Source of the DNA: Litchfieldia sinesaloumensis
GTDB taxonomy: Bacteria > Bacillota > Bacilli > Bacillales > Bacillaceae_L
Assembly (NCBI RefSeq): GCF_900156865.1
Contig: NZ_LT732529.1
Coordinates: 1,929,422 to 1,993,421, forward strand
Reading direction: 5' to 3'
Length of the DNA stretch: 64,000 bases
In this document: positions 28,674 through 47,934 of the stretch, piece by piece
Layout: every line of letters begins with the position of its first letter
How positions within the stretch are numbered: position 1 is the first letter of the stretch
Made by a program: the position numbers and the translations under genes
The notes under the pieces: model-generated
Seen by the model: only the letters and a program-made list of their open reading frames with translations
Told to the model about the DNA's origin: nothing
Databases searched by the model: none

Positions 28674-29109
28674 ATACTTCTTCGCAATATTCTTCAAAGG
28701 TATCTTGTAATTTATTGATTACATCCATTGGTTCATGACCTTCAATCTCATGACGTTCAATCATTTTTACAATTTTTCCATCTTTTAATAATGCAAATGA
28801 TGGAGAAGATGGTGGATATCCTTCAAAATATGTTCTTGCCTTTTCTGTTGCTGCTTTATCTTGACCGGCAAAAACAGTTACTAATTGATTTGGTCGCTTA
28901 TCATAATGAATGGCGTGAGCAGCAGCTGGTCTAGCAATTCCACCTGCACAACCACAGACTGAGTTAACCATCACTAATGTTGTACCTTCACGGTTTAGTG
29001 CTTCATCAACTTCTTCAGGTGTTTTTAGTTCTTGATAACCAGCTTCAGAGATTTCTCTTCTCGCTGTTTGAACGATATCATTCATAAACAGATTAAAATC
29101 TACTTGCAT
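28672..29109 (-). CDS. brxB: Bacilliredoxin BrxB (YqiW)
   Basis: A 145-residue thioredoxin-fold protein that removes bacillithiol from S-bacillithiolated proteins. The active site is Cys52-Gly53-Cys54 in [43 protein letters not shown] is near-identical to the B. subtilis family. A GTG at 29118 is in frame, but GAGGGAG lies at the right distance from the ATG at 29109, which gives exactly the 145 residues of BrxB. Its presence implies that the organism uses bacillithiol. Promoter TTGACA-17-TAAAAA lies upstream. Confidence 0.96.
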
Positions 29110-47006: not shown

Positions 47007-47067
47007 TCTATTTCCTCCTCAAACTACATCCGCAAAAATTTGTCTATATTTACATTCTAAAGAAAGA

Positions 47068-47092
47068 ATTCGACAATGCAATAAGATTTCCT
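47068..47092 (-). promoter_or_regulatory. Probable sigma-H promoter (Ps) of spo0A
   Basis: On the minus strand AGGAAAT (47086-47092) and GAAT (47068-47071) have the spacing of sigma-H promoters. A 0A box overlaps the -10. Confidence 0.6.
47069..47075 (-). promoter_or_regulatory. 0A box (Spo0A binding site) over the Ps -10
   Basis: A perfect TGTCGAA core on the minus strand, overlapping the sigma-H -10. This suggests autoregulation by Spo0A~P. Confidence 0.6.
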
Positions 47093-47199
47093 TTATTTTT
47101 TTAAAAAAATAGGAAAAATTTATTGAAAAATAATTTATTCTCCATTATACTTAAGATTTCGACTTAAAACGCCATTAATCTGTGGTGAAATTTCGATTT

Positions 47200-47206
47200 T
47201 GTCGAA
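47200..47206 (+). promoter_or_regulatory. 0A box (Spo0A binding site), distal
   Basis: TGTCGAA within TTTTGTCGAAAAATC on the plus strand, 194 bp upstream of spo0A. A one-mismatch copy in the other orientation lies at 47157-47163. Confidence 0.6.
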
Positions 47207-47290
47207 AAATCTTTATGTGATTTTATTATATCTTCTCATGCAATTTTTTGCGATATAAATCTGTACAAATTCTCCTCGCCCAGTTTAGTA

Positions 47291-47885
47291 TCTCCTGATT
47301 TGATTTGATTGCGGGGGACGATTCGCACCTATACTGGTTCTCTTTCTCCTAGTTTCATCCAGTTGCGGGGACGATTCACCACTTTGCTGGTTCGCTTTCA
47401 TCCAGTTGCGGGGACGATTCGTACCATTACTGGTTAGCATTCTCCTAATTTTATCCAAGTTCGAGGATGATTAACCACTTTGCTGGTTCGCTTTCTCCTA
47501 GTTTCATCCATTTGCGAGGACGATTCACACCCATACTGGTTCGCAATCTCCTAATTTTTTCTAAGTGTGAGGATGATTCACTACTTTACCAGTTCGCTTT
47601 CTCCTAATTTTATCCAAGTGTGAGGATGATTCACTACTTTACTGGTTCGCTTTCTCCTAATTTCATCCAGTTGCGGGGACGATTCACACCTATACTGGTT
47701 CGCAATCTCCTAATTTTTTCTAAGTGTGAGGATGATTCACTACTTTACTGCTTCGCTTTCTCCTAGTTTCATCCATTTGCGAGGACGATTCACACCTTTA
47801 CTGGTTCGCCTTCTCCTAATTTCATCCAGTTGCGGGGACGATTCACGACTATACTGGCCCCCCCTCTCCTAATTTTATCCATTCA
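47291..47885. repeat. Tandem array of about eleven 53-bp repeats between spoIVB and spo0A
   Basis: Eleven diverged direct repeats and a partial twelfth fill the 590 bp between the spoIVB terminator and the spo0A promoter region. Most units are 53 bp; the third is shortened by a deletion. Units carry a conserved TCTCCTA block and an ACTGGTTCG end. Two main variants occur, one with GTTGCGGGGACGATTCA and one with AGTGTGAGGATGATTCA, and they partly alternate. There are no unique spacers, so it is not CRISPR. On the minus strand most units contain a short GTG-initiated frame whose product is VNRPRNWMKLGESEPVK-like, with stop and next start overlapping. Confidence 0.92.
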
Positions 47886-47906
47886 CTTCTACAGTAATAA
47901 CAAAAG

Positions 47907-47934
47907 AAAAAGCGAGCATTTAGCCCGCCTTTTT
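47907..47934 (-). terminator. Terminator after spoIVB
   Basis: A stem of AAAAAGGCGGGC with GCTCGCTTTTT (minus strand), loop TAAAT, includes the spoIVB stop codon and ends in a T-run. Confidence 0.87.

Follow-up and report, generated by a model that had tools for sequence, protein, structure and literature searches.

Intergenic tandem arrays of constant 52- to 53-bp unit length in Bacillaceae, with one copy upstream of spo0A in Litchfieldia sinesaloumensis

Why should a run of 53-bp direct repeats stand between two genes that we take to be spoIVB and, from its sequence and gene order, spo0A? This question was raised by a 64,000-nucleotide stretch of the L. sinesaloumensis genome, hereafter the window. 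The initial annotation had described eleven repeats and a partial twelfth, read either as repeated peptides made by termination-reinitiation or as a structural period of about five helical turns. Tandem Repeats Finder (TRF), the check proposed with it, returned a period of 53 and 10.9 copies at 47316-47881 (score 556), and the only other TRF array of the 64 kb outside the array region was a 15-bp pair at 28733. Eleven units could be aligned in register, with a degenerate edge beside them, as described earlier (Table 1). The conserved core of the window array on the minus strand is TGGATRAAATTAGGAGAAAGCGAACCAG, and the 43-bp unit lacks, by eye, 10 bp between two TTTC words.

Table 1. Features of the spoIVB-spo0A region (positions within the window)
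Feature	Position	Strand	Basis
spo0A (assumed name), 264 aa	46212..47006	-	ORF
Conserved spo0A upstream region, intact, alignable with relatives	47007..47255	-	alignment
Inserted segment, ~648 bp, replacing 6 to ~20 bp of four close relatives	47256..47903		alignment
Degenerate partial unit, spo0A-side edge	47291..47313	-	sequence by eye
Tandem array of eleven units, all of 53 bp except one of 43 bp (47367-47409)	47314..47886	-	TRF and in-register unit alignment
Intrinsic terminator of spoIVB, retained upstream of the insertion	47907..47933	-	pattern scan
spoIVB (assumed name), 429 aa	47920..49209	-	ORF, query for relatives' loci

In four close relatives (two Fredinandcohnia onubensis strains, Bacillus sp. 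HNG, and B. timonensis AF060A6), only 6 to ~20 bp separate the spoIVB terminator from the conserved spo0A upstream region, and alignment with them agreed with the earlier placement of the array between this terminator and the spo0A control region. No array was present in the spoIVB-spo0A gap of the 77 named relatives with the gap covered, one of which (L013) is partly N there; these are the 80 named SpoIVB loci minus L024, L039, and L048, which end within ~400 bp of spoIVB and have no Spo0A motif. Furthermore, a profile of 62 units gave no significant match in the 80 loci, and TRF found no array of at least 2.5 copies and a period of at least 25 in them. In the eight nearest relatives (L009-L016), 247-689 bp separate spoIVB from the Spo0A motif beyond it, with the longest distance in L013. 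SpoIVB identity of 92-94% to F. onubensis, B. timonensis, and close strains would place the genome of the window in or near Fredinandcohnia. Because the gap of the relatives lacks the array, the insertion upstream of spo0A looks recent and specific to one lineage among the relatives examined. Other insertions were seen by eye in the gap of L012, L013, L018, L068, and L082, as if it were a spot that tolerates repeats. The window array is located ~300 bp upstream of spo0A, behind a terminator; an effect on spo0A is possible and is unnecessary to explain the array.

The window array belongs to a dispersed family. A BLAST search with it gave 12 matches in its own genome, and R1, a sequence-only model built from 46 dimers of eight arrays, gave 89 matches there, grouped into 16 loci, 14 of which held a 53-bp array by TRF; this genome carries about 14 arrays of the family. 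R1 matched all nine genomes of the same genus that were searched and none of 51 outside the genus. When 120 genomes were drawn from the order, one more was matched: G103, of a distant genus in another family of the order, whose weak R1 matches have coordinates ~52-53 bp apart. In the other eight genomes of the genus, TRF detected an array with a 52- or 53-bp period in 35 of 42 fetched loci, some of these arrays having only about two copies. Several arrays are located at contig ends of draft genomes, and therefore the counts there are probably lower bounds. Across the family, each unit consists of a conserved core (TGGATAnnnnTAGGAGAnnGCGAACCnG; ~30 bp, shared between loci) and a locus-specific variable part of ~20 bp, which is uniform inside one array and different from array to array. 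No account of such arrays in Bacillaceae was found in the literature searched, which lay mostly outside subscription journals.

Other repeats were observed in the same genome (G000, contig C3). An apparent second family with GAAGACC words occurs at 551177-551714 and 598419-598567, with period 52 once and 53 once. A 32-bp tandem repeat, whose core CCAACTGTCAGTTG is near-palindromic, has 17.7 copies (L152 3481-4039, ~759680-760238 on the contig) and begins exactly at the end of a 53-bp array. At L157 (1-2896; contig positions 3617200-3620095), a 271-bp tandem repeat of 10.7 copies with 99% matches contains in each unit a stretch like part of 5S rRNA by eye, although nothing in it reached an Rfam gathering score. 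The repeat comes shortly downstream of a complete 5S gene (3616399).

Ten orthologous locus groups are common to several genomes. The consensuses of orthologous arrays are 0-25 of 53 bases apart (outlier pair L165/L180, 35 of 53), the flanks mostly share 71-98% identity, with a few short flanks lower, and copy number is unequal, e.g. 17.8 versus 7.3. The same intergenic site can retain an array in several species, and new sites are also occupied, such as the one upstream of spo0A. The genes beside the arrays have varied functions: glycerol-3-phosphate dehydrogenase-like and phosphoglucomutase-like, RibA-like, CobW, alcohol dehydrogenase and S58 peptidase, release factor and MerR, GntR and FMN reductase, NERD and PRC-barrel, CNNM and D-Ala ligase, and DAG kinase and tRNA methyltransferase, some of these assignments scoring under the curated NCBIfam cut-off. 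Counted by orthologous group, five arrays are sense and three antisense to the adjacent gene (binomial P 0.73), and the rest lie between convergent or divergent genes; a sixth sense locus, L202, is a 52-bp array. A first count from simple ORFs had suggested a sense-strand bias, which disappeared once the loci were grouped by orthology and ORFs were called differently (5 to 3). The regrouped calls, too, rest on simple ORFs: a 73-aa ORF makes L177 antisense in a convergent group, and group 2, first counted as sense, became divergent on regrouping. Mobile carriers were likewise rejected, with no match at E 1e-5 among 72,556 plasmid and 50,697 phage records.

Copy number that varies between orthologous loci, sequences that change fast and in concert, and mixed flanking genes and orientations would all suit a neutral or selfish satellite, in which slippage and unequal exchange act on units of inherited length, a pairing step purges mis-sized units, and no function is selected. 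We regard such a satellite as a plausible, if somewhat improbable, account of the family; the evidence on unit length given below weighs against it.

A translated chain of mini-ORFs, with ~17 residues per unit (VNRPRNWMKLGESEPVK) and termination-reinitiation between units, was the first of the two readings proposed. In the window array, six GTG frames of 16 to 25 codons do exist (minus-strand starts at 47846, 47793, 47687, 47634, 47528, and 47382/47379), but only those at 47793, 47687, and 47634 are exactly 17 codons long and closed by an overlapping stop. The CCC/CCT and TTA/CTA variants among units are present as annotated, and internal stops exist, in the core codons of three of the ten units scanned (row L153; the 43-bp unit lay outside the scan). 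Across the family, this architecture did not hold: a one-unit frame with overlapping stop and start was found in 3 of 292 units (41 arrays), all of them in the window array. Any in-frame ATG, GTG, or TTG was present in 134 of the 292 units, leaving 158 without an open in-frame start, and 15 had a Shine-Dalgarno-like match. The known repeats nearest to this reading, the mycobacterial interspersed repetitive units (MIRUs), are, in the available text of PMC12548453, likewise short interspersed repeats carrying small ORFs with overlapping ends; they are described as being inserted at start codons and coupled to the next gene, whereas the window array stands well upstream of spo0A behind the terminator, the family does not conserve its frames, and the mixed orientation does not direct ORFs at the adjacent gene.

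The comparison of nonsynonymous and synonymous differences (N/S) suggested with the initial annotation gave lowish ratios and pointed to weak codon-level constraint. The annotated frame was tested as pre-specified, with six frames and a column-permuted null. Within arrays, N/S was 0.62 compared with 0.76 ± 0.14 in permuted data (64 of 400 as low; 621 pairs, 1-12 differences), and the lowest of six frames was equalled in 195 of 400 permutations. Between array consensuses, N/S was 0.60-0.72 against a null of 0.93-0.97 (17, 12, 13, and 19 of 300 as low at four distance limits), and 36-59 of 300 were as low with all six frames allowed. Stops in the annotated frame occurred in 67 of 292 units, fewer than column permutation tends to give (3 of 500 as low), a point in favour of translation, but two antisense frames were nearly as free of them (96 and 86 of 292). 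No codon periodicity of conservation was detected in 12 divergent representatives (P 0.51), and three consensus peptides had no Pfam match above cut-off. One genome holds both 52-bp and 53-bp arrays; therefore, codon phase is not the kept property. A peptide is conceivable for the window array alone and is not what the family preserves, and we consider a translated chain very improbable.

Length is the most constant property of the arrays, and their bases change fast. Spacing was 53 in 238 of 251 cases (52 in nine, 54 in two, and 86 and 96 in one each; 41 arrays, 292 units), in unit counts and consensus comparisons that took only arrays with a 53-letter TRF consensus resembling the core, left out L155, L162, and the 52-bp arrays, and therefore have equal length partly built in, favouring 53. 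Inside arrays, there were 13 spacing changes versus 2048 substitutions from the array consensus (0.006), compared with 175 gaps versus 705 mismatches (0.25) in neighbouring intergenic flanks of orthologous loci. Indels per substitution are thus ~40-fold rarer in arrays than in neighbouring intergenic DNA, a figure for which the flank pairs were pooled, of at least 75% identity, non-independent, and compared pairwise, whereas arrays were scored against their consensus; the Fisher test on these counts is descriptive only. This depletion argues against the neutral satellite.

A TRF scan unselected for sequence took in 800 kb of the own genome and stretches of 400 kb in G010 and 200 kb in G015 (15.4, 13.0, and 7.7 kb read N), and it returned 23 array loci with a period of at least 25 and at least 2.5 copies. 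The period was divisible by three in 8 of the 23, as expected for coding repeats; among the other 15, 13 had a period of 52 or 53 and two had periods of 32 and 41. In a small sample of 100 kb each of G022, G025, G020, and G027, from other families of the order, no 52/53-bp array was found. R1 missed the 52-bp arrays seen in G010 and G015, which represent a dissimilar family in two other genera and are members of dispersed families there: the G015 query gave 101 match pieces in G015, and the G010 query gave 30, 36, and 70 in G010, G012, and G014. The two queries weakly matched each other's genomes, and that of G010 also weakly matched a few loci of G004, G005, and G007, genomes of the same genus as the window. 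Since the G010/G012/G014 and G015 arrays are weakly alike, we count them and the family of the window as two dissimilar families in all, not three, nor one independent case per genus. TRF copy numbers of arrays range from about 2 to 41. In G015 (C1, e.g. 4937603-4938943), the 52-bp arrays were observed to have near-perfect inverted arms, TTCGGACAGCTT/AAGCTGTCCGAA, with up to 41 TRF copies per array (L289).

The length of 52-53 bp therefore occurs in two dissimilar families and three genera, together with weakly related arrays of a fourth, and under the neutral satellite, near-equal length in dissimilar families would have to be coincidental or inherited from a very remote ancestor. The weak cross-genus similarity of the 52-bp arrays leaves room for the latter, with a length that goes back to one old source.

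A transcribed array of RNA hairpins acting on mRNA stability or termination was also weighed. Strong inverted arms such as TTCGGACAGCTT..AAGCTGTCCGAA in the G015 arrays are consistent with it. Palindromic arms at p<=0.05 were found in 70% of the 56 loci of the 52-bp set, which includes two loci from genomes of the window's genus (L309 and L311), versus 6% of 47 loci of that genus. The inverted repeat GGTTCGC..GCGAACC was rejected as a general feature, the loci of the genus being at chance level. Furthermore, an alignment of dimers from the genus yielded no consensus RNA pairs, no Rfam match was obtained at the gathering score, and a covariation scan of 41 array consensuses showed scattered pairs only, so that neither sign of a structured RNA, an Rfam match or covarying pairs, was seen. 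With arrays lying sense, antisense, and between convergent or divergent genes as well, an RNA role appears improbable.

Five turns of DNA at 10.5 bp per turn make 52.5 bp. AA/TT power at five cycles per unit was 2.2 times the mean in 19 representatives of the genus and 3.0 times in 14 of the 52-bp set, compared with 1.3 in random genomic segments (P 0.002 and <0.001, loosest grouping); under the strictest grouping, the values were 2.5 and 2.6 (n = 7 and 3; P 0.015 and 0.049). These P values are optimistic because the representatives share ancestry. Five cycles was the top AA/TT harmonic of the 52-bp set, but the strongest in the genus was seven cycles (4.1), which a five-turn model does not predict, and the five-cycle signal in the conservation profile was not significant (P 0.15).

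Because bases change fast and length stays at 52-53 bp, a role at the DNA level is favoured over small peptides. We tentatively propose, with somewhat less than even confidence, that the arrays are intergenic satellites with such a role, about five turns per unit forming a phased array. Units would multiply and homogenise by slippage or unequal exchange, and their length would be held because the DNA presents repeated contacts on one face of the helix, about five turns apart, to a nucleoid or other putative DNA-binding protein; the array would act as DNA, not as message or peptide. The structural alternative of the initial annotation is thus favoured in its period, by constant length and AA/TT steps, and its binding array is a conjecture. 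Consistent with this proposal are the presence of the family in all nine genus genomes searched, with nearly uniform spacing, the indel depletion, the 52- or 53-bp period of most non-multiple-of-three arrays in the unselected scan, the five-cycle AA/TT enrichment in two dissimilar sequence families, and the mixed orientation without consensus RNA pairs or an Rfam match. Against the phased array stand the stronger seventh harmonic and the conservation profile, palindromic arms, as expected of a common half-site, that are frequent in the 52-bp set but scarce in the genus, the limit of two dissimilar families, the partly built-in equality of length, and passive inheritance, which may by itself keep a length constant; eukaryotic satellites also keep a constant unit length.

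Known repeats were compared with the arrays. The bcr repeats of the Bacillus cereus group are also intergenic and from Bacillaceae, but they are longer and are not known to have a fixed tandem period. REP/BIME elements would be marked by a palindromic unit, which the arms described above give for most loci of the 52-bp set and few of the genus, and by a cognate RAYT transposase next to a repeat; Y1_Tnp domains occurred in 4 of 4 genomes searched. In CRISPR, constant repeats alternate with unique spacers, whereas the variable part here is common within each array. Eukaryotic satellite DNA also has tandem units whose length stays constant while their sequence changes fast and in concert; the present arrays differ in being bacterial, short, and dispersed between genes. 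The closest known kind is the staphylococcal STAR elements. In the available text of PMC3532100, STAR elements of Staphylococcus aureus are, like these arrays, dispersed intergenic direct repeats of a motif and a spacer in tandem units of ~50 nt, with a spacer that is almost the same throughout one locus and differs from locus to locus, variable copy number, and no known function. The same text gives a 14-bp GC-rich motif, TNTGTTGNGGCCC, and most STAR loci with one motif only, at different places per species, whereas several loci of the window family are common to species (PMC3532100). With up to two mismatches, TNTGTTGNGGCCC had 6 matches in the window (9.8 expected by chance) and none in 47291-47886. 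A fixed unit length across genera is not described for STAR in that part of the source (PMC3532100), and we call the rigid 52-53 bp over dissimilar sequences what sets the arrays apart from STAR-type kinds.

A bolder version of the proposal, which we think unlikely, is that several genera of Bacillaceae keep a dedicated class of chromosomal satellite with a five-turn unit. An architectural protein that evolves fast and is specific to each lineage would bind the DNA on one face, so that the sequences would co-evolve with it and the ruler would stay. Non-coding DNA of bacteria is usually short and compact. Arrays that hold length and not sequence across genera would, if real, parallel the satellites of eukaryotes and offer a direct way to study a requirement for helical phase. 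The copy near spo0A would lend itself to such a test, because only one lineage of the relatives examined has an array inserted beside this master regulator of sporulation.
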